Shown: positions 421 to 14,042, counted from the first letter of the stretch. The stretch: 42,222 nt of DNA from a virus (IMGVR_UViG_3300037294_000187:1-42222), one strand, 5' to 3'. The notes: generated by a model from the sequence alone, not told the origin. A program made the numbers and translations.

Positions 421-1527
421 ATGTTGATTAGGTTTACACAAGGTTACTACAAGATACGCGGTAACGATGTTAACGTTGCAGGCATCGGCTTTGAGCTAGT
501 AGAAGACTACAAGACAGACAAGAACGGTGTTGGTTACATTACTGTTGACGGCAGTGCCACTCCAGGCTTTCCAGATCGTAAGATCCGTATCCGTTGTGCG
601 CAAGGCGCCTATACTGTTATGGGCGTGACCGATCAAACTACAGTACCAGAAGGGATGAGCATGTTGACAGCGTTAAAAACTAAGAACAAGGCCAATGCCA
701 CAGTGACAGACATGACACAGACTAAGATCAGCGATGCTACAGTAGCACAAGAAACAGATGAGCAGATCATTGAGCGCACTCGCATGCGTTTTGAAATCCT
801 CACTGAGATGACCAAAGCAGTCAAGTCAGGTGATGTACGTGCTATGATTGTCACTGGCCCTCCAGGTGTAGGCAAATCGTTTGGTGTTGAAGCAGTACTT
901 GAAAAGGATGACCTGTTCAATACACTAGGCGAGCGTAAACCCAAGTACGAGATCGTCAAAGGTGCTATGAGTGCCATTGGCCTGTACAGCAAGCTCTACG
1001 AGTTCTCAGACAGCAAGAGCATCATTGTGTTTGATGACTGTGACAGCATCCTGTTGGACGACGTCAGCTTGAACATTCTCAAAGCAGCCTTGGACACCAG
1101 CAAGAAGCGTACCATCAGCTGGAACACTGACAGCCGTGTGCTACGAAGCGAGGGAGTGCCAAACAAGTTCGACTTCAAGGGTGGTGCAGTGTTTATCACT
1201 AACTTGAAGTTCGAGAACGTTCGCAGTAAGAAACTGCAGGAGCACTTGGCAGCACTTGAGTCACGTTGCCACTACATTGACTTGAAGATGGACACTGATC
1301 GCGAGAAGGTTCTGCGCATTGAGCAGATTGTCAAGGACGGTATGTTGAACGAATACGACTTGTCAGACGAAGCCAAGACTGAAGTGGTTGAGTTTATCAA
1401 AGAGAATCGTGCTCACATGCGTGAGCTGAGCCTGCGTACTGTGCTCAAAGTAGCAGACCTGCGCAAGAGCTTCCCAAGCAATTGGGTCAACATGTGCAAG
1501 GTAACAGTTATGCGAGGTGTAGCATGA
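421..1527 (+). CDS. AAA+ family ATPase, 368 aa
   Basis: An NTPase with a Walker A P-loop GPPGVGKS at about residues 146-153 and a Walker B segment IIVFDDCDS at about 201-209. This core is preceded by about 140 residues of unassigned N-terminal sequence with a beta-rich look. The start at 421 is chosen because GGAGCGAA lies 2 nt beyond the usual SD distance and the consensus promoter at 358-386 ends upstream; longer readings would start inside the promoter. The C-terminal part after Walker B holds lid-like helices (LESRCHYIDL, then LSLRTVLKVADL). The stop overlaps the next gene by 4 nt. The family resembles phage AAA ATPases with unknown clients; the substrate cannot be inferred. Confidence 0.88.
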   Translation: MLIRFTQGYYKIRGNDVNVAGIGFELVEDYKTDKNGVGYITVDGSATPGFPDRKIRIRCAQGAYTVMGVTDQTTVPEGMSMLTALKTKNKANATVTDMTQTKISDATVAQETDEQIIERTRMRFEILTEMTKAVKSGDVRAMIVTGPPGVGKSFGVEAVLEKDDLFNTLGERKPKYEIVKGAMSAIGLYSKLYEFSDSKSIIVFDDCDSILLDDVSLNILKAALDTSKKRTISWNTDSRVLRSEGVPNKFDFKGGAVFITNLKFENVRSKKLQEHLAALESRCHYIDLKMDTDREKVLRIEQIVKDGMLNEYDLSDEAKTEVVEFIKENRAHMRELSLRTVLKVADLRKSFPSNWVNMCKVTVMRGVA

Positions 1528-1946: not shown

Positions 1947-1975
1947 TTGACTTAGACCACAGAGTATTGTATTAT
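1947..1975 (+). promoter_or_regulatory. Early sigma70-type promoter (weaker)
   Basis: TTGACT at 1947-1952, 17-nt spacer, TATTAT at 1970-1975: one mismatch in each box. It drives the gene at 2030. The leader differs from the other early leaders (GAGGAAA instead of GGAGCGAA). Confidence 0.8.
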
Positions 1976-2029: not shown

Positions 2030-2302
2030 ATGAAAAGATTCAATAAAGAAACCAAGACATTCAAAGTTTTTACCGCATTGTACAATGGTGCAGTGTTGAC
2101 ATCTAGCCAGGCCAAGCATGATCTAGGCGTTGGCAACCTGTCAGCAGAAGTAAGCCGCATCAAGCAGAATGGCTATGCCGTGTATGCTCGTACCCGTGTA
2201 GCAGGCAATGGTGTCACAGTTTGTGAATACGAAATGGGTCAACCAAGCCGTGAAATCGTTGCGCTAGGTTACAAAGCCAAGTCATTAGGCATCACGCTCT
2301 AA
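2030..2302 (+). CDS. Putative HTH DNA-binding protein, 90 aa
   Basis: The ATG is preceded by AGAGGAAAC. Residues about 14-52 read as a compact helix-turn-helix or winged-helix: a helix (FTALYNGA), then LTSSQAKHDLG, a turn (VGN) and LSAEVSRIKQNGYAVY as the probable recognition helix plus wing. It is a single-gene unit with its own promoter and a strong terminator at 2355. The 3'UTR carries the 14-nt element at 2326. It is a candidate early transcription regulator. The fold call is from pattern only. Confidence 0.75.
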   Translation: MKRFNKETKTFKVFTALYNGAVLTSSQAKHDLGVGNLSAEVSRIKQNGYAVYARTRVAGNGVTVCEYEMGQPSREIVALGYKAKSLGITL

Positions 2303-2325
2303 GAGTAGTTTCAAACAGCTAATAC

Positions 2326-2339
2326 CGATTCGCTCCCGG
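2326..2339 (+). repeat. 3'UTR element, copy 1
   Basis: CGATTCGCTCCCGG, identical to 9432-9445. It lies between the stop codon of the HTH gene and the terminator. Its core TTCGCTCC is the exact reverse complement of GGAGCGAA, present in the ribosome-binding region of five other early genes. Confidence 0.8.
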
Positions 2340-2354
2340 GGTAGGCACGTTTGA

Positions 2355-2387
2355 GGGTGTGGCAGAAATGTCACATCCTTTTCTCTT
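2355..2387 (+). terminator. Rho-independent terminator with GAAA loop
   Basis: Stem GGGTGTGGCA / TGTCACATCC pairs over 10 bp (two G-U) around a GAAA tetraloop and is followed by TTTTCTCTT. It ends the HTH gene transcript. Confidence 0.88.
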
Positions 2388-2405
2388 GACCGGCACTTGA
2401 CCAGG

Positions 2406-2434
2406 TTGACAGTTTGGATATATAGTGTTATAAT
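2406..2434 (+). promoter_or_regulatory. Early sigma70-type promoter
   Basis: TTGACA 2406-2411, 17-nt spacer, TATAAT 2429-2434. The leader carries GGAGCGAA at 2458-2465 and precedes the GTG-started gene at 2468. Confidence 0.93.
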
Positions 2435-2467
2435 ACTCATATAGACAGCAACAACTAGGAGCGAACC

Positions 2468-2626
2468 GTGTACAGCAGACTATTCAACGAAATACGAATT
2501 GGCAGCATGTTTAGATTCAACGGCAATGACTACTTGAAGCAGAGTACTCGCACTGCCCGCAACCTAAATTTTGATCGTGTGTTCTACATTGGACAGACGG
2601 ATGTGGTACATCCAATCGCTTGGTAA
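2468..2626 (+). CDS. Small unknown protein, 52 aa, GTG start
   Basis: This reading frame starts with GTG 3 nt after GGAGCGAA at 2458-2465 and runs to TAA at 2624-2626. The start is supported by the promoter-leader-SD arrangement shared with neighbouring genes. The sequence MYSRLFNEIRIGSMF followed by FNGNDYLKQSTRTARNL and an aromatic-rich end looks like a small beta-strand domain of the kind found repeatedly in T4-like aquatic phages. It is first in a two-gene unit with the OB-fold-like protein. Function unknown. Confidence 0.72.
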   Translation: MYSRLFNEIRIGSMFRFNGNDYLKQSTRTARNLNFDRVFYIGQTDVVHPIAW

Positions 2627-2636
2627 GGAGCACTTG

Positions 2637-3275
2637 ATGAACTATTCAGCAGATCAAGTATGGGGATTGGCCGTGGCAGCCGATCGTGTCAACGGCGGCT
2701 ACTTCAAAGAAGATGTCTACGTGATGGAGAATCAGTGCACCAAGCGTATCACACAGGCCAACAAGCTCATGCTCAAAGAGTGGTTGCGTGACGGCATGAC
2801 TTCTGAAGCCACAGCTGAAGATCTAGAGCAAGGGCGTACAGTGCGTCACTTCTTCAACGGTTTCCTACTGAAAGAACTTGCAGGCAAGATCAACGACTTT
2901 GAACGACAGGCCCTGCGCATTGCACAGATAGACGAGTTCACTGGTCGCAACATGTTAGAGTTTGCCATTGTATCATGCTTACCTTCTGCTATGCTACGTG
3001 AACAGAGCCGCAAAGAGCTGGCCAGCGACATACGTAATAGCACACAGTTGACAGGCTCAGTAGGGGATCGGATCGAGGGCGAAGTAGAGATCATCAAGTG
3101 CTTCTACTCACAGGACTATGCCAAGTTCAGGATCACTGCACGACTAGTTGACAGTTTCGTTGATTTCTGGTATAATACCAGTATGGAAGCAGGCAGTCGT
3201 GTTAAGATTCGAGGCAAGATTAAAACATGCCGTAGCGATTTTACCACACAGTTAAACTATGTAAAAATAAGTTGA
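2637..3275 (+). CDS. Protein with C-terminal OB-fold-like domain, 212 aa
   Basis: The ATG at 2637 follows AAGGAG by 6 nt; upstream in-frame starts are not supported. The N-terminal two thirds are helical with no recognised motif. The last 65 residues (GDRIEGEVEIIKCFYSQ to TTQLNYVKIS) have the strand spacing of an OB fold, ending with a GSRVKIRGKI strand typical of nucleic-acid-binding OB domains. A role in RNA or DNA binding is inferred. A perfect promoter is embedded in the codons for VDSFVDFWYNTS. The stop codon sits next to the next promoter. Confidence 0.78.
   Translation: MNYSADQVWGLAVAADRVNGGYFKEDVYVMENQCTKRITQANKLMLKEWLRDGMTSEATAEDLEQGRTVRHFFNGFLLKELAGKINDFERQALRIAQIDEFTGRNMLEFAIVSCLPSAMLREQSRKELASDIRNSTQLTGSVGDRIEGEVEIIKCFYSQDYAKFRITARLVDSFVDFWYNTSMEAGSRVKIRGKIKTCRSDFTTQLNYVKIS
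3148..3176 (+). promoter_or_regulatory. Internal consensus promoter inside the OB-fold gene
   Basis: TTGACA 3148-3153, 17-nt spacer, TATAAT 3171-3176 lie entirely within coding sequence. No clear SD precedes the in-frame ATG at 3183. It would feed the MoxR-type gene together with the promoter at 3272, or give a transcript of the last 30 codons. Confidence 0.7.
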
Positions 3276-3300
3276 CACATTGAGCAAGTGGTGTTATAAT
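3272..3300 (+). promoter_or_regulatory. Early sigma70-type promoter
   Basis: TTGACA 3272-3277, 17-nt spacer, TATAAT 3295-3300. The -35 box uses the TGA stop codon of the OB-fold gene (3273-3275). It drives the MoxR-type ATPase at 3350. Confidence 0.92.
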
Positions 3301-3349
3301 TATAACACTGAGAGATTAGTTATAAACCCTGAGAAAGAGAAGGTCTAAA

Positions 3350-4432
3350 ATGGCAAAAGCACAAGATATTTCCACCCGCACAGTTGGTCCTAAGAGTGCC
3401 AAGAAGGCAATCAACTTCGCAATCAAGATGCGTCGTCCAGTGTTCCTTTGGGGCCCTCCAGGCATTGGCAAGAGTGACATCGTCAAGCAGATCGGCGACA
3501 GCGCTGGTCGTGAAGTAGTTGACGTTCGACTGGCCCTGTGGGAACCTACAGACATCAAAGGTATCCCCTACTACAATGCCGATCAAGGCAAGATGGTTTG
3601 GGCACCTCCAGCAGAATTGCCTACTGACCCAGAGTCTACGGCAATCATCTTCTTAGACGAGTTGAACAGTGCTCCGCCAGCGGTACAGGCAGCTGCCTAT
3701 CAGTTGATCCTTAACCGTCGAGTTGGTACTTACCACTTGCCCAAAGGTGTTGACGTTGTAGCCGCTGGCAACCGTGAAGGCGATCGTGGCGTGACATACC
3801 GTATGCCTGCTCCGTTGGCTAACCGCTTCGTCCACTTGGAAGCCAAGGTAGACTTTGACGACTGGCAGGACTGGGCTACGCTCAACAAGGTACACGCAGA
3901 GGTTGTTGGTTATGTAGGCTTTGCCAAGCAAGACCTGTATGACTTTGATCCCAAGAGTTCTTCAAAGGCCTTTGCTACTCCGCGCTCATGGAGCTTTGTA
4001 AGCGACCTGTTGAACGAGGACTGCGACAGCGAGACACTGACTAACTTGGTATCAGGTGCGATTGGTGATGGCTTGGCAGCCAAGTTTATGGCTCACCGCA
4101 AGATTGCATCCAAGTTGCCTCGTGCAGAAGACATTTTGGACGGCAAGGTCAAGGACTTGCAGATCAAGGAAGTGTCAGCAATGTACTCATTGACAGTGTC
4201 ATTGTGCTATGAGTTGAAGGATCGTGCAGAGAAGAAGGCCAAAGACTGGAACGGTATGGCAGATAACTTCTTTGCCTACATGATGGCGAACTTCCCAACT
4301 GAGCTGGTTGTGATGGGTGCAAAGACTGCGCTTACCAACTACGACTTGCCGCTGGATGCTACAAAGATGAAGAGCTTTGATGAGTTTCATCGTAGGTTTG
4401 GCAAATATGTGCTCTCCGCCATGGAAAATTGA
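3350..4432 (+). CDS. MoxR-type AAA+ ATPase, 360 aa
   Basis: ATP-dependent remodelling factor of the MoxR/RavA type. Walker A GPPGIGKS is at residues 35-42 and Walker B IIFLDE at about 99-104. NRREGDRG-like sensor sequence follows at about 140-150 (AAGNREGDRGVTYRMPAPLANRF), typical of MoxR proteins. The start has a GAGAAGG site about 8 nt upstream. The gene is followed by a terminator and then by a VWA-domain gene, the usual genomic partner of MoxR ATPases. In cells such pairs act as chaperones for metal-centre insertion or complex assembly; the client of the phage pair is unknown. Confidence 0.88.
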   Translation: MAKAQDISTRTVGPKSAKKAINFAIKMRRPVFLWGPPGIGKSDIVKQIGDSAGREVVDVRLALWEPTDIKGIPYYNADQGKMVWAPPAELPTDPESTAIIFLDELNSAPPAVQAAAYQLILNRRVGTYHLPKGVDVVAAGNREGDRGVTYRMPAPLANRFVHLEAKVDFDDWQDWATLNKVHAEVVGYVGFAKQDLYDFDPKSSSKAFATPRSWSFVSDLLNEDCDSETLTNLVSGAIGDGLAAKFMAHRKIASKLPRAEDILDGKVKDLQIKEVSAMYSLTVSLCYELKDRAEKKAKDWNGMADNFFAYMMANFPTELVVMGAKTALTNYDLPLDATKMKSFDEFHRRFGKYVLSAMEN

Positions 4433-4454
4433 TTTAGACCCAGTTTTCCATGAT

Positions 4455-4490
4455 GGGCTACGAGCTTCTCAGGGTTCGTAGCCCTTTTTT
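4455..4490 (+). terminator. Rho-independent terminator
   Basis: Stem GGGCTACGA (4455-4463) / TCGTAGCCC (4476-4484) followed by six T. It separates the MoxR-type gene from the promoter of the VWA gene. Confidence 0.93.
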
Positions 4491-4499
4491 ATCTAGTGG

Positions 4500-4528
4500 T
4501 TGACGTTTGAACAATCCCATGCTATAAT
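4500..4528 (+). promoter_or_regulatory. Early sigma70-type promoter
   Basis: TTGACG 4500-4505, 17-nt spacer, TATAAT 4523-4528, followed by the leader with AAGGAG and the ATG at 4554. Confidence 0.9.
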
Positions 4529-4553
4529 ATACACATACTAAGGAGAGCGACAG

Positions 4554-5759
4554 ATGGACCCAATTTTAGAGAAACTGACAACTGCCCGTATCGGGCTCTT
4601 GCTCAAAGCGCCGTTCTTCGGCAACATGGCAACACGCATGAAGTTGATTGATGCCAGCGATTGGTGTCCCACAGCGGCTACCAACGGTCGTGACTTTATG
4701 TATAACAAGGACTTCGTTACCAAGCTCAGTGTTAAGAAGTTAGAGTTCCTCTTTGCACACGAGATCTGTCATGGTATCTTTGATCACTTTGGACGCTTGG
4801 GCTCACGTGATGCCAAGCTGGCGAACATTGCACAGGACTACGCCGTGAACCAAATCCTTGTGGATGAGCGCATTGGTGACAAGATCACTGAAGTGCAGAT
4901 CTGTTTGGATCCCAAGTATCGTGGTATGGCTTGGGAAGAGATCTACGACGAACTGTTCGGCAAGTTGGAAAAGATCTCGATGGAAGACCTGTTGAAGATG
5001 CTGGGCGATCAGTTAGACGATCACATCAAGGAAGAAGAAGGACCTGGCAGTGGAGACAAGGACGGCAAAGGCGGTAAGCCTACACTGACCAAAGAAGAAG
5101 CACAGGCCATCCGTGATGAGATCAAGAACGCCATGATCCAAAGTGCCGCGGCAGCTGGTGCTGGCAAAGTGCCCGCAGGCATCATGCGTATGATCAAAGA
5201 CATCACAGAGCCCAAGATGGACTGGCGTCAGTTGGTGCAACAAGAGATCCAAAGCATTGTTCGCAATGACTACAGCTTCCAGCGAGTCAATCGCAAGAGC
5301 ATGCACTCAGGTGCGATCCTTCCGGGCATGAAAGAAGCCACTACCATTGATGTGGCCATTGCTATTGATATGAGCGGATCAATTGGTGAAGAAGATGCTT
5401 CTGCGTTCTTGAGTGAGATCAAAGGCATCATGGACCAGTACGAGGACTTCAGGATCAACCTGTGGTGCTTTGACACAGAGATTTACAATCATCAAGAGAT
5501 CACACACGACAATGATCACGACTTGATTGAGTATGTGCCCGAAGGTGGTGGTGGTACATTGTTCGAAGCTAACTGGACATTTATGGAAGAGATGGGCATC
5601 CAGCCTAAGAAGTTTATCATGTTCACAGACGGCTACCCAGGCAACACTTGGGGCGATGAAGATTATTGCGACACCATCTTCATTGTCAAAGGCAACGAGC
5701 GAGCAGTGGCTCCATTTGGACAAACTGTGATCTATGAGAGAGAAACGGCTGGAGCATAA
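4554..5759 (+). CDS. VWA domain protein with HExxH-type motif (DUF2201-like), 401 aa
   Basis: The N-terminal region has HEICHGIFDH at residues 69-78, a zinc-metallopeptidase-like HExxH signature with a third His. A linker rich in Gly/Lys/Glu (about 160-180) follows. The C-terminal von Willebrand A-like domain carries the MIDAS motif DMSGS at 272-276 and a later FTDGYPGN segment. This order matches the DUF2201/VWA-like family. It lies just after a MoxR-type ATPase, the family's normal partner, with its own promoter. The pair probably works together as an ATP-driven protein remodeller on a metal-dependent or multi-subunit host target. Whether the HExxH is catalytic is unknown. Confidence 0.87.
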   Translation: MDPILEKLTTARIGLLLKAPFFGNMATRMKLIDASDWCPTAATNGRDFMYNKDFVTKLSVKKLEFLFAHEICHGIFDHFGRLGSRDAKLANIAQDYAVNQILVDERIGDKITEVQICLDPKYRGMAWEEIYDELFGKLEKISMEDLLKMLGDQLDDHIKEEEGPGSGDKDGKGGKPTLTKEEAQAIRDEIKNAMIQSAAAAGAGKVPAGIMRMIKDITEPKMDWRQLVQQEIQSIVRNDYSFQRVNRKSMHSGAILPGMKEATTIDVAIAIDMSGSIGEEDASAFLSEIKGIMDQYEDFRINLWCFDTEIYNHQEITHDNDHDLIEYVPEGGGGTLFEANWTFMEEMGIQPKKFIMFTDGYPGNTWGDEDYCDTIFIVKGNERAVAPFGQTVIYERETAGA

Positions 5760-5766
5760 CTGAAGT

Positions 5767-5808
5767 GCCAGGGGTGTTGCATAAAAACGACACCCCTGGC
5801 CTAAGGCC
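5767..5808 (+). terminator. Strong hairpin after the VWA gene, no U-tract
   Basis: GCCAGGGGTGT (5767-5777) pairs perfectly with ACACCCCTGGC (5790-5800) over 11 bp around a 12-nt A-rich loop. A second overlapping hairpin GGCC-TAA-GGCC ends at 5808. There is no T-run, so it may be a processing or stability element instead of an intrinsic terminator. Confidence 0.65.
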
Positions 5809-5822
5809 CCGCTGTTAGCCGG

Positions 5823-5851
5823 TTGACATGACCCTAGTTTGGTTGTATAAT
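5823..5851 (+). promoter_or_regulatory. Early sigma70-type promoter
   Basis: TTGACA 5823-5828, 17-nt spacer, TATAAT 5846-5851. The leader has GGAGCGAA at 5874-5881. It heads a five-gene overlapping operon (5884-7028). Confidence 0.93.
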
Positions 5852-5883
5852 ACTTACATACAGACACACAATAGGAGCGAAAG

Positions 5884-6171
5884 ATGAACGTAGAAGAAAT
5901 TAACCGTGCTATTATCACTGGCACCTTTACTAACGAGCAACTGGTATCTGTGATAGATGCTGTCAAGTTTGCCCGAGCACAGTTGGGCCGTAAGACTAAA
6001 AACAGTCTGCAGGTTGGTGACAATGTGAACTTTACCTCGTCTAAGACAGGTCGCAATACTACAGGCGTGGTAACTAAGATCGCTATCAAGTATGTGACGG
6101 TAAAGACCATGACAGGCCTGTGGCGTGTTCCTGCTAGTATGTTAACCCGAGTAGAAGAGGAGTTTGCATAA
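5884..6171 (+). CDS. Unknown protein with SH3/KOW-like C-terminal half, 95 aa
   Basis: The first 35 residues are helical (EEINRAIITGTFTNEQL). Residues about 40-85 (LQVGDNVNFTSS...TGVVTKIAIKYVTVKT) look like a small SH3- or KOW-like beta barrel, as seen in many small nucleic-acid-associated proteins. The start follows GGAGCGAA by 2 nt. The TAA stop overlaps the next ATG by one base (TAATG). It is first in a tightly overlapped operon. Function unknown; fold suggestion from pattern only. Confidence 0.75.
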   Translation: MNVEEINRAIITGTFTNEQLVSVIDAVKFARAQLGRKTKNSLQVGDNVNFTSSKTGRNTTGVVTKIAIKYVTVKTMTGLWRVPASMLTRVEEEFA

Positions 6172-6344
6172 TGCAATACATTATCGGAATCGTTATTGGT
6201 ATCTGTATCTGGCATTACTGGCCCAATGAGGCTGCTGGTATTGCAGAAAAGACACAGGAAATCATTCACCAGGGTGCCGCAAAGGCAGCAGAACTCACAG
6301 CACCTAAATCAACATTAGATAAAATTAAGGAAGCAGTACAATGA
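6171..6344 (+). CDS. Small membrane-anchored protein, 57 aa
   Basis: MQYIIGIVIGICIWHYW gives one N-terminal membrane segment, followed by an amphipathic helix of about 35 residues rich in Ala, Lys and Glu. The ATG overlaps the upstream TAA (TAATG) and the stop overlaps the next ATG (ATGA), so it is coupled at both ends. A GAGG-type site lies about 10 nt upstream. It is likely an inner-membrane-anchored helical protein; role unknown. Confidence 0.68.
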   Translation: MQYIIGIVIGICIWHYWPNEAAGIAEKTQEIIHQGAAKAAELTAPKSTLDKIKEAVQ

Positions 6345-6520
6345 GCAAACTGGCAGAATTATCATACGATATCGAACAACTGTATATCGAAGGCTACTCA
6401 CCGCGTACCATTTCAGTTATGTTAGACTGTCCTATTGATATTGTATATGATTGGTTAGAAGAAATCAATATCGATACCGCTGAAGACACAGCTTCTGAAC
6501 AGGATACCTATTCATTATGA
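6341..6520 (+). CDS. Small HTH-like protein, 59 aa
   Basis: Residues about 8-42 (LSYDIEQLYIEG, YSPRTISVMLD, CPIDIVYDWLEE) form a three-helix pattern close to the sigma-70 region 4 or homeodomain-like HTH fold used in small phage regulators. The acidic tail is disordered (TAEDTASEQD). The start and stop both overlap their neighbours as ATGA. DNA binding is inferred. Confidence 0.68.
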   Translation: MSKLAELSYDIEQLYIEGYSPRTISVMLDCPIDIVYDWLEEINIDTAEDTASEQDTYSL

Positions 6521-6801
6521 GCCGACTCGAGTTCTTTGCACGACCATTGGTAGCATTTGATTGTGCCAACAAGGATCATCGTAGATTCTATGCAGAGTTC
6601 CTAAAATACAAGACCTGGGGCCGTTGCCCAGTTCGATTCATAGTGCCCGATGCAGTTGGCTATGATCTAGTCAGACTGATTCAGTTGGAGTTGATCGACT
6701 ACTACGCTGATCAGGAGTTCGGCAGAGAGAAACCACGGAAGCCAGTGCGTAGCCAGAAGGTTGGTATGACCCACGGCGGCCTTAGCCTGGTGATACTATG
6801 A
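6517..6801 (+). CDS. Unknown protein, 94 aa
   Basis: No family with a known function is recognised. The sequence begins MSRLEFFARPLVAFD, carries a central TWGRCPVRFIVPD segment and a basic stretch REKPRKPVRSQK near the C terminus. The pattern resembles a protein found repeatedly in aquatic T4-like phages. It overlaps both neighbours by 4 nt in the operon starting at 5884. Confidence 0.72.
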   Translation: MSRLEFFARPLVAFDCANKDHRRFYAEFLKYKTWGRCPVRFIVPDAVGYDLVRLIQLELIDYYADQEFGREKPRKPVRSQKVGMTHGGLSLVIL

Positions 6802-7028
6802 TCGCCACGGCCGCAGGCAGCTGGGTCCTGATCATTGCTCTGTTTAGCCCAGAAGGTGAATTCGTTGATAAGTACGCAGAAGGTCCTATGAGCAAGACTC
6901 GTTGCGAACAACAGGTTACAGAGCTGAATCAAATCAACACGCGAGTGACCTACCAGTTCCGTAGCATCTGCGTGACTCAAGATCATTGGTTGGGCAAAGC
7001 CCCTATGCCGGGTGTGGGTTTAGACTAA
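6798..7028 (+). CDS. Probably exported or membrane-linked small protein, 76 aa
   Basis: The first 17 residues (MIATAAGSWVLIIALFS) are hydrophobic without strong positive charge before them, so they may be a weak signal or anchor. Two cysteines at about 35 and 59 could form a disulfide if the body is periplasmic. It overlaps the upstream stop (ATGA) and ends the operon just before the promoter at 7034. Function unknown. Confidence 0.7.
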   Translation: MIATAAGSWVLIIALFSPEGEFVDKYAEGPMSKTRCEQQVTELNQINTRVTYQFRSICVTQDHWLGKAPMPGVGLD

Positions 7029-7033
7029 TTTGG

Positions 7034-7062
7034 TTGACTCCCTGGCAGTTTGGCAGTATAAT
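7034..7062 (+). promoter_or_regulatory. Early sigma70-type promoter
   Basis: TTGACT 7034-7039, 17-nt spacer, TATAAT 7057-7062. The leader ends in AAAGGAG before the ATG at 7093. Confidence 0.91.
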
Positions 7063-7092
7063 TAACACATACTGAAACACAAAGGAGCTGAT

Positions 7093-7314
7093 ATGGGATA
7101 CGCTGTTGTTGCTGATCGATACGAAACAGACTGGATGCGAGTCAAGTACGGTCCACGCAAAGGACTAGAAGGCCCGTTCAACTTCATGGGTCGAGTCCTG
7201 TACTACGATGTCAAGGAAGGCGCATACTACGATCCTACCACGGACTTCTATGTTGAGCAAGAGGAAATGGACACTTTGAACCGCAACCTTGCCAACTTGA
7301 TCAAGCGGGCTTGA
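7093..7314 (+). CDS. Unknown Tyr-rich protein, 73 aa
   Basis: A monocistronic early gene with its own promoter and an AAAGGAG site 6 nt from the ATG. The product is rich in Tyr and Asp (VADRYETDW, RVLYYDVKEGAYYD) and ends in a basic helix NLIKRA. No membrane segment and no known motif. The next promoter begins 4 nt after the stop. Confidence 0.72.
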   Translation: MGYAVVADRYETDWMRVKYGPRKGLEGPFNFMGRVLYYDVKEGAYYDPTTDFYVEQEEMDTLNRNLANLIKRA

Positions 7315-7318
7315 TTGG

Positions 7319-7347
7319 TTGACAGATTGGATAGATGACAGTATAAT
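7319..7347 (+). promoter_or_regulatory. Early sigma70-type promoter
   Basis: TTGACA 7319-7324, 17-nt spacer, TATAAT 7342-7347, directly after the upstream stop. It drives the 48-aa gene at 7378. Confidence 0.92.
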
Positions 7348-7377
7348 ATACACATACTGAAACACAAAGGATACGAA

Positions 7378-7524
7378 ATGCCCTACACACTGATCACAAA
7401 GACAGGCACAGTAATGCAATTCTATATCAAAGCCACAGCAGATCTATACCAAACGATCAACGGTGGTGTCGTTGTAACCGACGACGTTTTGGTTGACACT
7501 TTGGACGAAGTGCAGTATAATTAA
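7378..7524 (+). CDS. Short unknown protein, 48 aa, 3' end built from a promoter
   Basis: The ATG follows AAAGGA at the standard place after a consensus promoter. The frame runs 48 codons to TAA at 7522-7524. The last ten codons (VDTLDEVQYN) coincide with the next promoter: TTGACA encodes part of V-D-T and TATAAT encodes Y-N. So either this is a real gene whose tail is constrained by the promoter, or the upstream promoter mainly feeds the next gene. The body is a short beta-like protein with no recognised motif. Confidence 0.6.
   Translation: MPYTLITKTGTVMQFYIKATADLYQTINGGVVVTDDVLVDTLDEVQYN
7493..7521 (+). promoter_or_regulatory. Early sigma70-type promoter inside a gene end
   Basis: TTGACA 7493-7498, 17-nt spacer, TATAAT 7516-7521, wholly inside the last codons of the 7378 gene. 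The leader has GGAGCGAA at 7544-7551; it drives the gene at 7554. Confidence 0.92.
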
Positions 7525-7553
7525 CACATACAAACAAACAACTGGAGCGAACC

Positions 7554-7772
7554 ATGCGTAAACAAACAAGCAAGCTGATGGACATAATGGAAGACGGTAT
7601 GATCAGTGCTCAAGCAGTGGCAGACATGTGCCTTGCTTACATGAGCGAAGATGATGTTGCTGACATGATGCGCGACAACGACATCATCGAAGAAGAAGAT
7701 GAAGAAGCTGAAGAAGAGTGGACTCCAGAGAATGCCGACTTCAACGACAAAGGTTCAATACACCACTATTGA
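7554..7772 (+). CDS. Very acidic small protein, 72 aa
   Basis: After a helical, Met-rich N terminus (about 1-40), residues about 45-58 are an almost continuous run of Asp and Glu. Such acidic tails occur in DNA-mimic and host-takeover proteins, but also in many phage proteins without that role. The ATG lies 2 nt after GGAGCGAA. Monocistronic; the next promoter begins 5 nt after the stop. Confidence 0.75.
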   Translation: MRKQTSKLMDIMEDGMISAQAVADMCLAYMSEDDVADMMRDNDIIEEEDEEAEEEWTPENADFNDKGSIHHY

Positions 7773-7776
7773 TTGG

Positions 7777-7805
7777 TTGACAGTTTGAGCATTTGGTTGT
7801 ATAAT
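7777..7805 (+). promoter_or_regulatory. Early sigma70-type promoter
   Basis: TTGACA 7777-7782, 17-nt spacer, TATAAT 7800-7805. The leader has GGAGCGAA at 7825-7832. It heads the four-gene unit 7835-9042. Confidence 0.93.
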
Positions 7806-7834
7806 ACTTACATACAGACACAAAGGAGCGAAAG

Positions 7835-8098
7835 ATGGCAAAGACAGCACAAGACAAGTTTAGCGAATACCTAGATGAGTGCCGCGAGAACCGCGTGGCA
7901 GTAGACGAGTTTGCCCAGGCTGCGTATGCAGAGTACAAGAGCAATGCCTACATTGCCGGTTACCTACAGAGCTTTGTTGGTGGTTTGATTAGTGAACTGC
8001 CAAAGAAGCGCCGTGCAGAGATTCGTGAAGAGTTCCGCAAGTTGGCACAGAAGCACCTGAATGCGGCGCTGGTCAATACCATCAAGGAGACAGCATGA
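7835..8098 (+). CDS. Unknown helical protein, 87 aa
   Basis: Charged and alpha-helical throughout, with one mildly hydrophobic stretch (AYIAGYLQSFVGGLI) that is too short and interrupted for a sure membrane segment. The C-terminal half is basic (KKRRAEIREEFRKL). The start follows GGAGCGAA by 2 nt; the stop overlaps the next ATG (ATGA). Function unknown. Confidence 0.74.
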   Translation: MAKTAQDKFSEYLDECRENRVAVDEFAQAAYAEYKSNAYIAGYLQSFVGGLISELPKKRRAEIREEFRKLAQKHLNAALVNTIKETA

Positions 8099-8259
8099 TC
8101 AAAGAGCAGAAGATGTTCTACACACCCGAGACACAAGAAGAGCTGATGGAACGGATCGAAGAGATTGCCAAAGCATCCGATAATCCTGCGGCTGTGTGGA
8201 CTGCTGTGATGATGATGCATAACTACATCGCTGTTGAAATGTCTAAGGAGAATGCATAA
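8095..8259 (+). CDS. Small helical unknown protein, 54 aa
   Basis: It runs from the ATG overlapping the upstream TGA to a TAA that overlaps the next ATG by one base. An AAGGAG site lies about 6 nt upstream. The sequence is acidic and helical (ETQEELMERIEEIAKAS) with a Met-rich segment (VMMMHNY). No motif recognised. The tight coupling on both sides supports it as a real gene. Confidence 0.68.
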   Translation: MIKEQKMFYTPETQEELMERIEEIAKASDNPAAVWTAVMMMHNYIAVEMSKENA

Positions 8260-8879
8260 TGCCTAATTGGTGTTCGAATCATGTCACTGTGCGCGGCACA
8301 GACCCTGTAGAGATCGAAAGACTGAGTCAGGCATTTGCAGACGGCAAGTTCTGTAATGCGGTGAGACCTATTCCGGAAGAGCTGAACAATCCAGACACAG
8401 GCAGCTTTGGTGGTGACGGTGCCGAAGACAAAGACCAACGTCGTGCAGAGTTAACGGCCAAATACGGCTACAGTGGCTGGTATGATTGGTGCGTGGCCAA
8501 CTGGGGCACCAAGTGGGATGTAGGCGACGACAGCAACCTAGAGCTTGACGAAGATGGACTAGGTTTCAGCGGCTCGTTTGACAGTGCCTGGACGTCACCC
8601 ATTGGTGTTATGGAAGCTCTAACTGAGCAGGGTTTCGAAGTCACTCTTTACTACTACGAACCAGGTATGGGCTTCTGTGGTAAATGGCAAGACGGCGATG
8701 ACGAATGTATAGAATACGCAGGTGAGACCAGTGAGACTGTTCGAGCTGCCATTGGTGATGAGCTGGACGATATGTTTGGCATCAGTGAGTCAATGGCTGA
8801 ATGCGAAGCGGAGAATCCAGAAGAAGAACTCACTGAGTGGATCAAAGAAGGGATTGAATCCAAAAATGAGAACACTTAA
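8259..8879 (+). CDS. Api92-like / DUF1281-type ferredoxin-fold protein, 206 aa
   Basis: The opening MPNWCSNHVTVRG and the central YGYSGWYDWCVANWGTKWD are the signature of the Api92-like (DUF1281, YubB ferredoxin-like) family, known from plasmids, integrative elements and phages. Its biochemical role is unknown. The N-terminal half holds the conserved Trp/Cys-rich core, and residues about 100-160 continue the alpha-beta fold (SGSFDSAWTSPIGVMEAL). The C-terminal 30 residues are acidic. The start overlaps the upstream TAA (TAATG); the last 14 nt overlap the next gene. Confidence 0.88.
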   Translation: MPNWCSNHVTVRGTDPVEIERLSQAFADGKFCNAVRPIPEELNNPDTGSFGGDGAEDKDQRRAELTAKYGYSGWYDWCVANWGTKWDVGDDSNLELDEDGLGFSGSFDSAWTSPIGVMEALTEQGFEVTLYYYEPGMGFCGKWQDGDDECIEYAGETSETVRAAIGDELDDMFGISESMAECEAENPEEELTEWIKEGIESKNENT

Positions 8880-9042
8880 ATTTACATTTGAAGTCCTATG
8901 TGCAGGTAACGGTACCGCGGACGCCGCTCGAGTCGAAGAGATGATCGATTTGAGCATGCAAGAGCTCTGTTTTGATGACGAATTTATTTCAGCATTGGAC
9001 GAGAAGGAGAGTGTCACAATACAGGTCCAACGAATTGGATAA
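8866..9042 (+). CDS. Unknown protein, 58 aa
   Basis: The ATG at 8866 lies inside the 3' end of the Api92-like gene (14-nt overlap), after a weak GGGA site. The product alternates strands and a helix (MRTLKFTFEVLCAGNG, DLSMQELCFDDEF, VTIQVQRIG), resembling a small ferredoxin-like half. It is the last gene of the unit that begins at 7835. Function unknown. Confidence 0.65.
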   Translation: MRTLKFTFEVLCAGNGTADAARVEEMIDLSMQELCFDDEFISALDEKESVTIQVQRIG

Positions 9043-9050
9043 ATGATTGG

Positions 9051-9080
9051 TTGACACTTTGAGTTGAACGATGTTATAAT
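9051..9080 (+). promoter_or_regulatory. Early sigma70-type promoter (18-nt spacer)
   Basis: TTGACA 9051-9056, 18-nt spacer, TATAAT 9075-9080. The leader differs from the other units and lacks GGAGCGAA (AAAAGGTAATTTTAAA before the ATG). Confidence 0.9.
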
Positions 9081-9127
9081 TAACTGTCAATATTGACAAA
9101 CACACACACAGAAAAGGTAATTTTAAA

Positions 9128-9430
9128 ATGTCTACTACAAAAACTTTCGCAGTCGCCGGCGTTTCAACACTGGCTGGTTCAACCAAGATCCGCTTTGCCA
9201 ATGATACCATGCGCATCAAGATCTTGGCCAAGAACGGTCACACTGACATCGACTTGATCGAACTGCCACAAGCAATGACCAAAGGTGAGATTGCTCAGCA
9301 CATGATCGCCGCGGGTTTTGGCAAGGGTAATGCCGCTACTGAAGCCGCAATTGCCTACACAGTTAAAAAGAACCCTGCACCCAAGCAGGAGAATGCTACT
9401 GTCGAGATGACAGAAGCCGTTGCTGCCTGA
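9128..9430 (+). CDS. Unknown protein, 100 aa
   Basis: The ATG follows AAAAGG by 9 nt in a leader unlike the GGAGCGAA type. Residues about 1-45 look beta-rich (TKTFAVAGVSTLAG, IRFANDTMRIKIL), and the middle contains a helix pair (MTKGEIAQHMIAAGFG) that could be an HTH-like element. The C-terminal 25 residues are low complexity (Pro/Ala/Glu/Thr). It is monocistronic with a terminator, and its 3'UTR carries the second copy of the 14-nt element. That architecture matches the HTH gene at 2030, so a regulatory role is plausible but unproven. Confidence 0.75.
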   Translation: MSTTKTFAVAGVSTLAGSTKIRFANDTMRIKILAKNGHTDIDLIELPQAMTKGEIAQHMIAAGFGKGNAATEAAIAYTVKKNPAPKQENATVEMTEAVAA

Positions 9431-9431
9431 T

Positions 9432-9445
9432 CGATTCGCTCCCGG
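9432..9445 (+). repeat. 3'UTR element, copy 2
   Basis: CGATTCGCTCCCGG, identical over 14 nt to 2326-2339. It starts 2 nt after the stop codon and lies 16 nt before a terminator stem, the same arrangement as copy 1. Confidence 0.8.
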
Positions 9446-9461
9446 ACGTCAGTAACTTGAT

Positions 9462-9490
9462 GCCCTAGGCTTTCGAGTCTAGGGCTTTTT
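9462..9490 (+). terminator. Rho-independent terminator
   Basis: GCCCTAG (9462-9468) pairs with CTAGGGC (9479-9485) and is followed by five T. It ends the transcript of the 100-aa gene. Confidence 0.92.
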
Positions 9491-9504: not shown

Positions 9505-9885
9505 ATGACAGACATAACCATATTAGACCTGATCCTAACCTTTGCTCTTGGCTGTGCGATTGGACATGCTGTGACCAAGTGGATTATGAGTTGGACCACT
9601 GCTGAACTGTTGCGTGATTTGGGCGTGACTCCGGATCGATTAACCAACCTGCTTGATCAGTTAGAGCAGGATGGAACAGACCAACAAGACATTGTGATCG
9701 ACATGCGAGTGGAAAAACACGAAGAGATCCTGTATGCCTACAACAAGGACACTGGCAAGTTCATAGGGCAGGCCGCTGACAGAATCACTATGATCCAGCG
9801 ATTGACCGAAGAGTGCCGCGCAGTACGCAATGACGTTCGATACCGTATTGCAGAAGAAGACGGGGCGGAATACCTCAAAGAATAA
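9505..9885 (+). CDS. Membrane-anchored unknown protein, 126 aa
   Basis: The N terminus has one hydrophobic segment (ILDLILTFALGCAIGHAV, about 5-25) and then a soluble alpha-beta domain with Tyr/Asp-rich strands (EILYAYNKDTGKFIGQA) and a terminal charged helix. It has no visible promoter of its own: it lies 15 nt beyond the terminator at 9462-9490, so it may depend on read-through. The start has only a weak upstream A-rich site. Similar short anchored proteins occur in T4-like aquatic phages. Function unknown. Confidence 0.72.
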   Translation: MTDITILDLILTFALGCAIGHAVTKWIMSWTTAELLRDLGVTPDRLTNLLDQLEQDGTDQQDIVIDMRVEKHEEILYAYNKDTGKFIGQAADRITMIQRLTEECRAVRNDVRYRIAEEDGAEYLKE

Positions 9886-9918
9886 CCCTAGACAGTCTAA
9901 GGTCTTAGACAGCATTAG

Positions 9919-9947
9919 TTGACAGTTTTGGGTGTGTGCAGTATAAT
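9919..9947 (+). promoter_or_regulatory. Early sigma70-type promoter
   Basis: TTGACA 9919-9924, 17-nt spacer, TATAAT 9942-9947. The leader ends AAAAAGGAAACTAAAA before the ATG at 9979. Confidence 0.92.
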
Positions 9948-9978
9948 AGACACATACACACTAAAAAGGAAACTAAAA

Positions 9979-12757: not shown

Positions 12758-12950
12758 TCTAGCTGTAGTGTGCGCTGTGGCTGCTGCAGGCTGTGGCACA
12801 CAGGCCAGGGACCCGAGAGATGCACCCTGGGACAGCCCGGTACACACACGATTTGATCAGATCCCCGCATGGGAAGGTCATGCCCGGAGGCGGTGTGGTG
12901 GTCAGGTTAGACCAGAGTTGAGAACACCTGAGATGACCGACCGGTGTTGA
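12729..12950 (+). CDS. Small lipoprotein, 73 aa
   Basis: The ATG at 12729 follows GGAGG by 9 nt, inside the end of the upstream gene. The N terminus MYVTTLLRCSLAVVCAVAA with AAAGC ending at Cys22 is a good type II signal peptide and lipobox: a short basic region, a hydrophobic core and a Cys. The mature part is about 52 residues, Pro/Arg rich, with two further Cys. It would be lipid-modified and face the periplasm. Size suits an outer spanin or a superinfection-exclusion lipoprotein. No inner-spanin gene is adjacent, so the spanin reading is weak. It sits at the end of the early operon. Confidence 0.72.
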   Translation: MYVTTLLRCSLAVVCAVAAAGCGTQARDPRDAPWDSPVHTRFDQIPAWEGHARRRCGGQVRPELRTPEMTDRC

Positions 12951-13370
12951 TGGAGGGGTGGGCTATAGTGTAGTACTGTAGTAGTACTGCTGTAGCTAGT
13001 AGTGGTGTAAAATCACCACCCCAAAAGCCCAAGTACTCCACCACAATTTTTTAGCGCTGTAATTTTTTGCCTCCTCAAACTCTTTTTCTATTGTTCCCAG
13101 TCTGGAACTATTCTCTATAAATACTGCTCCACTGGGGAGTTCTCTATGTACATTTTACAGTTATCCAACGGTCAGTAGTTTGAGTTCTACGTTTTAGCCT
13201 GTGCAGAACTATATCAACAGGCACATGGAGGGACCATTACTCACGCTAGCCATATACTAGCTGCTGCGTAGAATCACCATGGGGGGTGTATTTGCCCATT
13301 TTAAAAAAATTTGCGCAGTATTTTTTCTCTCAGCTAGACCCTTTTCCACGCTAACACCACAGTCAACACA
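12951..13370 (+). other. Non-coding junction with hairpins and a late promoter motif
   Basis: About 420 nt without a convincing gene. It holds TAGTACTG-type short repeats at about 12968-12990, a hairpin GTGGTG-TAAAAT-CACCAC at 13002-13019, a GCCTGT/ACAGGC pair around 13197-13222, several T-runs, many CTAG tetramers, and TATAAATA at 13116-13123 with no ATG at the expected position. It lies between the early plus-strand block and the small late-type genes. It could encode a structured RNA or act as a regulatory or replication region. Confidence 0.55.
13116..13123 (+). promoter_or_regulatory. T4-late-type element, no gene directly downstream
   Basis: Exact TATAAATA on the plus strand, 248 nt before the next ORF. 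It would give a long untranslated leader or a non-coding transcript. Confidence 0.45.
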
Positions 13371-13478
13371 ATGACTCTAACCATTACTAGCCTACAGGAA
13401 TACTTCTTATGGGGCGCACTCTTTGGCTTTACCACAGCAGTGTTGTTGCTACTGTTGGTATGGATTGCCAACAAGTAA
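13371..13478 (+). CDS. Single-TM microprotein, 35 aa
   Basis: ATG at 13371 to TAA at 13476-13478. It encodes a short polar N terminus (MTLTITSLQEYF) and one strong transmembrane helix (AVLLLLLVWI) ending in ANK. No clear ribosome-binding site or promoter is visible directly upstream, which lowers confidence. Its stop codon lies inside the late-type element of the next gene (AGTAAATA at 13474). It could be a small membrane modulator; no family assigned. Confidence 0.5.
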   Translation: MTLTITSLQEYFLWGALFGFTTAVLLLLLVWIANK

Positions 13479-13486: not shown

Positions 13487-13711
13487 ATGCTGCTAGTATA
13501 TCTCGAACCATTAGCTCTTACGCAGATACAGTTGCTCAACACCTGGAGCGAATATGTACGCTATTGGCCGCGTAGTCGCGTAAACACGCATGTTTACAGC
13601 GCCGCTATTCCCACTGACTATTGGCTCTTATTCAATCAACAGTTATTGGCCACACAATGGTTGCTACAGTATCCGGATCATACTAGAGTAGTACGCACCT
13701 TGTTTGACTAG
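13487..13711 (+). CDS. Unknown protein, 74 aa
   Basis: The start at 13487 is preferred to 13409 because a late-type AGTAAATA lies 5 nt upstream and because the longer frame would overlap the TM microprotein. The product is rich in Leu, Gln and Trp (LALTQIQLLNTW, LLFNQQLLATQWLLQ), without a recognised domain or membrane segment. No SD is present, consistent with leaderless expression. The next 125 nt (13712-13835) are non-coding and contain a GC-rich hairpin. Confidence 0.55.
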   Translation: MLLVYLEPLALTQIQLLNTWSEYVRYWPRSRVNTHVYSAAIPTDYWLLFNQQLLATQWLLQYPDHTRVVRTLFD

Positions 13712-13822
13712 ATTTACTGATGGTTTGAGACCCTGTTTATGGCTGTGTATAAACTGTGTAGTTAATTCTGTAAAAAATCTTGCGCGGTGCGCTTCGCGCT
13801 CTTGGACTCTGCTGCCGAATGG
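13712..13822 (+). other. Intergenic stretch with GC-rich GCGC repeats
   Basis: It includes a GC-rich patch (GCGCGGTGCGCTTCGCGC at about 13784-13801) inside AT-rich sequence, able to fold on itself through its GCGC units. There is no T-tract, so it is not a clear terminator. No gene is seen. Confidence 0.4.
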
Positions 13823-13830
13823 TATAAATA
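13823..13830 (+). promoter_or_regulatory. T4-late-type promoter, leaderless arrangement
   Basis: Exact TATAAATA, then TTATC, then the ATG at 13836. With the element centred near -10, transcription would start at the ATG. Confidence 0.7.
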
Positions 13831-13835
13831 TTATC

Positions 13836-14042
13836 ATGCAACAATATCTCATATCTAAAGCTCGCAACACTGTTACTGGGCAAACTGTAAAGACGCAGGA
13901 GCTAACAGGGGCACGTTTAGGGTTAAATCAGCGCAGTATGGCTGAGGAATTGGCTCAACAACTAGCTGACAAGATGACAGCACGTACTGGTGTTACATGG
14001 GTGGGATTTTGTGAAGCCTATACTCCTACAGTTCGTCGATGA
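13836..14042 (+). CDS. Unknown late-type protein, 68 aa
   Basis: The start is set by an exact TATAAATA 5 nt upstream; the longer frame from 13704 has no SD and would carry the promoter inside it. The product has a TGQTVKTQELTGARLG strand region, a helix (SMAEELAQQLADKMTARTG) and ends TVRR, like small conserved proteins of aquatic T4-like phages. It ends directly at the minus-strand gene (stops abut at 14042/14043), marking the convergence of the two halves. Function unknown. Confidence 0.68.
   Translation: MQQYLISKARNTVTGQTVKTQELTGARLGLNQRSMAEELAQQLADKMTARTGVTWVGFCEAYTPTVRR

Follow-up and report, generated by a model that had tools for sequence, protein, structure and literature searches.

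The 42,222-bp IMG/VR virus record IMGVR_UViG_3300037294_000187, whose whole length is called the window here, raises the question why one 14-mer, CGATTCGCTCCCGG, is present in the 3' untranslated regions (3'UTRs) of two early genes, designated host genes A and B, and contains a core complementary to the Shine-Dalgarno region of several other early genes. The answer favoured here, with good confidence, is a phage antisense RNA regulon, in which hairpin loops would block the Shine-Dalgarno region of early messenger RNAs (mRNAs) in trans. Sequence comparison strongly supports base pairing between loops and leaders, and shows a hairpin, an invariant loop, its co-occurrence with complementary leaders, and a joint switch of loop and leaders. 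Two proteins encoded in the window, a DNA helicase of the UvsW type and an AAA ATPase, are most similar to those of the large T4-like phages PA5oct, Atu_ph07 and Phosso.

An exact scan of the window found two copies of the 14-mer, at 2326-2339 and 9432-9445, where the initial annotation had placed them; shuffled sequences lead to an expectation of 0. Both copies are followed after 13-16 nucleotides (nt) by an intrinsic-terminator-like hairpin, close to the approximately 16 nt described before. The complementary motif GGAGCGAA has eight matches on both strands of the window, compared to 0.77 expected. All five leaders which had been reported to carry it exist, four of them at the coordinates originally given; the first site lies at 409-416 instead of 411-418. 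An additional match at 13545-13552 precedes a frame of nine codons and is probably due to chance.

In related phages, the 14-mer forms the top of a hairpin, in which an inner stem CCG/CGG closes the 9-nt loop AUUCGCUCC, and the outer stem is variable and frequently contains a small internal loop. The repeat unit recognised initially is real, but its nature as stem plus loop and its functional core, TTCGCTCC, had been overlooked. Among the relatives, this core is enclosed by the inner stems CCG/CGG, CTG/CAG, TCG/CGA, GTG/CAC, CTA/TAG, TTG/CAA and others. For 44 distinct sequences, chosen from 97 contexts with exclusion of most plainly non-hairpin contexts, a covariation score of 0.685 was obtained, compared to 0.233 for shuffled and at most 0.165 for slid sequences; 87.9% of the cells pair, and 36 cells are altered on both sides. 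In the unselected set, at least three inner pairs are present in 101 of 141 sequences. The stems covary while the loop core UUCGCUCC stays invariant, and few copies have an altered core, for example CTCGCTCC or TTCGCTCT. With its UUCG, the loop conforms to the YUNR U-turn motif known from antisense RNAs.

Scanning IMG/VR for exact copies of the 14-mer identified at least 119 stretches, some of which are chance matches in coding DNA. Among the relatives, the loop recurs in three contexts. In class A, it is located about 20 nt 3' of an HTH_39 gene, and the exact 14-mer is present in the 3'UTR of 73 of 76 host gene A homologues. In class B, it lies 1-4 nt past the stop codon of a gene for a protein of about 100 amino acids; here, the exact 14-mer was identified in 41 of 70 host gene B homologues, and a compensated variant in most others. 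Class C consists of a tandem hairpin pair 3' of an AAA ATPase gene, a homologue of the window gene 421-1527, and the second hairpin often doubles as the terminator. When arms were swapped between loci of class C, the average folding energy changed from -16.9 kcal/mol for own arms to -8.6 kcal/mol; the same test did not discriminate in classes A and B, where excessive sequence similarity makes it weak. In large records (n=20), mostly exactly two copies are present on one strand, with a spacing of about 6-9 kb (classes A and B) or 43-78 nt (class C). The loop-bearing phages are a group of large environmental phages, in each of which a few early messages end in such hairpins. For proteins A and B, no tblastn match was obtained in GenBank phages, and the class A consensus 21-mer was not found in GTDB genomes. 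In the isolates PA5oct, Atu_ph07, Phosso and Vibrio 2.275, which contain related helicase or AAA genes, TTCGCTCC is only about as frequent as the reversed control pattern, and no cultured example was found. As a separate observation, the 3'UTR at 1393-1620 of L393 contains at least four hairpin-like repeats bearing ATTCGCTCC or AATCGCTCC, an expanded array.

The occurrence of the leaders follows that of the loops. At loci with relatives of protein B, the density of GGAGCGAA leaders is 0.32 per 10 kb in those lacking the core and 3.31 per 10 kb in those with two cores, GGAG density being similar. At loci with AAA relatives, it is 3.22 per 10 kb with and 0.21 without the loop; for L404, an apparent exception, the loop proved to be present and had been overlooked by the automated count. 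Relatives that have lost the 14-mer and kept the leaders, which the initial annotation had named as a finding against its proposal, were not observed, since the leaders vanish in loop-less relatives.

The decisive evidence for pairing is provided by a sister lineage of more distant AAA relatives (L402, L406, L407, L408 and L411, also L448), in which the same 3'UTR contains TGCCCTC loops (UGCCCUC in RNA), usually in two copies, one of them within the terminator hairpin. At these loci, 23 of 39 occurrences of GAGGGCA are in leader position and none of the two of GGAGCGAA, while at TTCGCTCC loci the leader position is held by 68 of 82 occurrences of GGAGCGAA and none of six of GAGGGCA. Fourteen of the 23 genes with a GAGGGCA leader are homologous to genes with a GGAGCGAA leader and belong to about eight families. 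Among the switched families are that of window gene 7835 and the AAA ATPase of window gene 421, the homologues of which have a GGAGCGAA leader in TTCGCTCC phages and a GAGGGCA leader in TGCCCTC phages; the 'QTNKLLEM' family, which window gene 7554 resembles, also changes its leader along with the seed. Since loop and leaders switch together on homologous genes, they evolve as base-pairing partners do, and the two pairs GGAGCGAA/TTCGCTCC and GAGGGCA/TGCCCTC represent the compensatory change of seed and target that is looked for in trans-acting antisense small RNAs (sRNAs). In an unguided loop search, only these two seeds had at least three complementary leaders. A further combination, in which TTGCTCC loops occur together with GGAGCA leaders (L409, L432), is suggestive of a third pair. 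In L413, L416 and L422, long hairpins are located 3' of the AAA gene with loops containing TAGCTCC or AACGCTCC, which are possible further seeds.

In all five window targets, the start codon lies 2-4 nt 3' of GGAGCGAA, and each target has its own sigma70-type promoter (TTGACA..TATAAT) and a short leader. The targets are transcription units separate from the hosts, clustered in the early region close to the hairpins. CGAA was the most frequent tetramer following GGAG in leaders in all nine of the records counted first. The loop-leader duplexes predicted for the window's five targets have energies between -13.7 and -16.0 kcal/mol, compared to about -10 kcal/mol with two other leaders containing GGAGC. 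Host genes A and B were said to lack the target leader; this holds for the window and also for their distinct homologues (0 of 87 for A, 0 of 46 for B), and any action from the A and B loops would therefore be in trans. In class C, a GGAGCGAA leader is also present in 11 of 30 loop-bearing AAA genes.

According to the mechanism proposed, the 3' ends of two early single-gene mRNAs that stop at an intrinsic terminator would each fold into a hairpin exposing 5'-AUUCGCUCC-3', and the loop would pair with GGAGCGAA, the Shine-Dalgarno region of about 4-12 early genes per genome. The paired loop would compete with the 30S ribosome, and translation of the target would be lowered; as the pairing covers the Shine-Dalgarno region, blocked 30S binding is the simplest effect. 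The loops would act in trans, either on fragments processed from the 3'UTR or on the entire end of the mRNA. In a sister design, the loops form a tandem pair 3' of the AAA ATPase gene, which is frequently one of the targets. The initial annotation had suggested 3'UTR-derived RNAs which pair in trans with several ribosome-binding sites. Co-occurrence, stem covariation and the seed-target switch back the pairing, and action in trans fits; repression and the release or processing of a short RNA are what we infer, as are a chaperone, the timing, and a shut-down or balancing of early genes.

Apart from the early targets, nine distinct leaders in L004, L015, L036, L039, L040, L047, L070, L074 and L178 contain a stretch of 11-14 nt complementary to the 14-mer (CCGGGAGCGAA...), which follows a T4-type late promoter (TAAATA) and precedes the start codon. 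The protein encoded downstream in L178 matches CsgF, and several others look similar. Some late genes may also be within reach of the loop RNA, with a match longer than at the early targets.

Several observations weigh against an antisense regulon. The complementarity is short, comprising only 8 nt, and the related contigs are not independent of one another, so that p-values are indicative only. The foot of the outer stem of hairpin A overlaps the terminator stem, and while the fold of 2310-2358 gives -11.7 kcal/mol, that of 2303-2395 favours the terminator. Hairpin B is weak alone, and the minimum free energy fold of the window copy is a different one. In L396, the AAA gene is followed by two tandem hairpins, both perfect and bearing TCGCTCC loops (9876-9950), but the leaders there are mainly GGAGCA. 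Moreover, the protein B homologue in TGCCCTC phages does not have a TGCCCTC loop in its 3'UTR.

Four other explanations have to be weighed. The pairing might be real but occur in cis or between full-length mRNAs, so that the 3'UTR loop and its own or a neighbouring 5' leader set stability or translation with no free small RNA, as for icaR of Staphylococcus aureus. The 11 class C genes with both loop and leader are in line with this, and no same-strand consensus promoter was found from the start of host gene A or B to its hairpin, which makes loop and message parts of one transcript. However, self-pairing is impossible at hosts A and B, where no homologue has the leader, and the targets are separate transcription units, which makes this explanation unlikely. 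Still less probable is a reversed direction, in which the leader-bearing mRNAs are sponges or protectors governing the loop-bearing mRNAs of the HTH gene, gene B and the AAA gene. The pairing evidence is symmetrical, and the loops are located on mRNAs of likely regulators; but the paired site is the Shine-Dalgarno region of the target, 2-4 nt from the start codon, where pairing should block initiation, and the tandem loops fused with terminators look stand-alone and resemble effectors.

Loop and leader might also be bound separately by a phage protein, as RNA or as double-stranded DNA, their complementarity being incidental. The T4 protein RegA, which reduces the translation of numerous early phage mRNAs, acts at the initiation region and provides a precedent. 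Yet the stem arms covary as RNA, the orientation with respect to the transcripts is constant, loop and leaders change jointly to a new complementary pair, and RegA was not found, all of which render a protein site very improbable. Chance, as a strong Shine-Dalgarno consensus combined with an unrelated short repeat, can practically be dismissed: GGAG is a common Shine-Dalgarno sequence and 8-nt matches are short, but the window expectations for 14-mer and GGAGCGAA are far below the numbers found, the exact core is conserved in many contigs, leaders are lost in loop-less relatives, and the comparative data refute it.

The antisense regulon would resemble RegA in addressing many early mRNAs at the initiation region; RegA is a protein, whereas the proposed phage regulator is an RNA. 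RegA (PF01818) was found in none of 18 records, and the 14 IMG/VR records in which it was sought without success include one of 353 kb; this absence is suggestive only, because most of the records are fragments; in T4-like AM101, the positive control, it was detected with E=1.5e-41. The evidence leans, with less confidence than for the regulon itself, towards a dedicated viral system with its own extended Shine-Dalgarno code on early genes and matching hairpin RNAs as the off-switch, which would replace a RegA-like repressor, loop and code drifting together to a private seed per lineage.

Among known RNAs, the closest in working principle is the alpha-r14 sRNA family (NfeR1, Sinorhizobium meliloti), in which several hairpins share an anti-Shine-Dalgarno motif on differing stems and silence mRNAs at the initiation region (PMC10746234). 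A conserved loop, free stems and pairing to Shine-Dalgarno regions are common to both. However, alpha-r14 RNAs are bacterial and encoded by a stand-alone gene, with three hairpins bearing the motif CCUCCUCCC, while the phage loops are viral, lie in 3'UTRs, form one or two hairpins and have the core UUCGCUCC or UGCCCUC. Unlike alpha-r14, the phage seed UUCGCUCC matches a phage-specific Shine-Dalgarno extension (CGAA) which marks a phage gene set. The proposed system thus follows a known working principle, yet is not a member of the alpha-r14 family. Next closest is the icaR 3'UTR of S. aureus, the UCCCCUG motif of which pairs with the Shine-Dalgarno region and blocks initiation (PMC3868564). 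The icaR motif acts on its own mRNA, while in the phages the target is missing from hosts A and B and present on several other genes; a target on the mRNA of the loop itself is confined to the 11 class C cases. Like 3'UTR-derived trans-acting sRNAs, the loops are located in a 3'UTR just 5' of an intrinsic terminator and have no promoter of their own. Bacterial sRNAs of this type, such as SdhX, are encoded at the mRNA 3' end and bounded by the terminator (PMC6393394); compared to these, the phage hosts are early genes, the seed is presented by a hairpin loop, and processing is putative. In the parts covered of a 2025 review of phage sRNAs, no such system was found; literature coverage was partial, and a description elsewhere is possible. 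With Rfam, the window had no match at the gathering score, and ten related loci had matches to transfer RNAs (tRNAs) only; a search of three loci at E values up to 1 also yielded no convincing match. A tRNA remnant or attachment site, considered for its T-arm resemblance, was rejected: the window contains no tRNA, and no tRNA overlap was present among the 135 14-mer matches listed.

If correct, the regulon would be a virus-encoded RNA regulator acting on an entire set of early genes of the phage itself, its pairing backed by the compensatory seed and target switches that occurred naturally on homologous genes. Early-gene turn-down in large T4-like phages without a detected RegA would become directly testable, and naturally evolved orthogonal seed/leader pairs would be available for translation control.

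Table. Positions of loops, hosts and targets in the window
Feature	Position	Strand	Remarks
Target site GGAGCGAA	409..416	+	Precedes AAA ATPase gene 421-1527
AAA ATPase target gene	421..1527	+	phrog_1250; homologue annotated nrdC.10 in Acinetobacter phage AM101
Promoter of host gene A, TTGACT-17-TATTAT	1947..1975	+	10/12 consensus
Host gene A, 90-amino-acid HTH_39 winged-helix protein, loop in 3'UTR	2030..2302	+	Pfam HTH_39, E=0.0002
Hairpin A; loop ATTCGCTCC 2328-2336; inner stem CCG 2325-2327 / CGG 2337-2339; outer stem 2310-2316 / 2349-2355	2310..2355	+	From fold; relatives alike
Intrinsic-terminator-like hairpin A	2353..2380	+	12-bp stem, then T-rich tail
Target site GGAGCGAA	2458..2465	+	Precedes gene 2468-2626 (GTG start); predicted duplex -16.0 kcal/mol
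Target site GGAGCGAA	5874..5881	+	Precedes gene 5884-6171; similar protein (MNVQQINTALVTGSFTNDQL) with same leader in L207
Target site GGAGCGAA	7544..7551	+	Precedes gene 7554-7772; protein resembles 'QTNKLLEM' family
Target site GGAGCGAA	7825..7832	+	Precedes gene 7835-8098; L402 homologue (45% identity) with GAGGGCA leader
Promoter of host gene B	9051..9080	+	12/12 consensus
Host gene B, 100-amino-acid protein, loop in 3'UTR	9128..9430	+	No Pfam or PHROG match
Hairpin B; loop ATTCGCTCC 9434-9442; inner stem 9431-9433 / 9443-9445; outer stem GTTGCTG 9419-9425 / CAGTAAC 9450-9456	9419..9456	+	Register from homology to relatives
Intrinsic-terminator-like hairpin B	9462..9485	+	10-bp stem, then TTTTT

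Two further features of the window were noted. The regions 12950-13380 and 13720-14040 are gene-poor and lie where the early region of the + strand meets replication genes of the - strand. In the early region, a gene for a MoxR-type AAA ATPase (3350-4432) is followed by one for a DUF2201 metallopeptidase/VWA protein (4554-5759), for which PHROGs gives the name HNH endonuclease, unsupported by the Pfam result; together, they form a MoxR-VWA pair.

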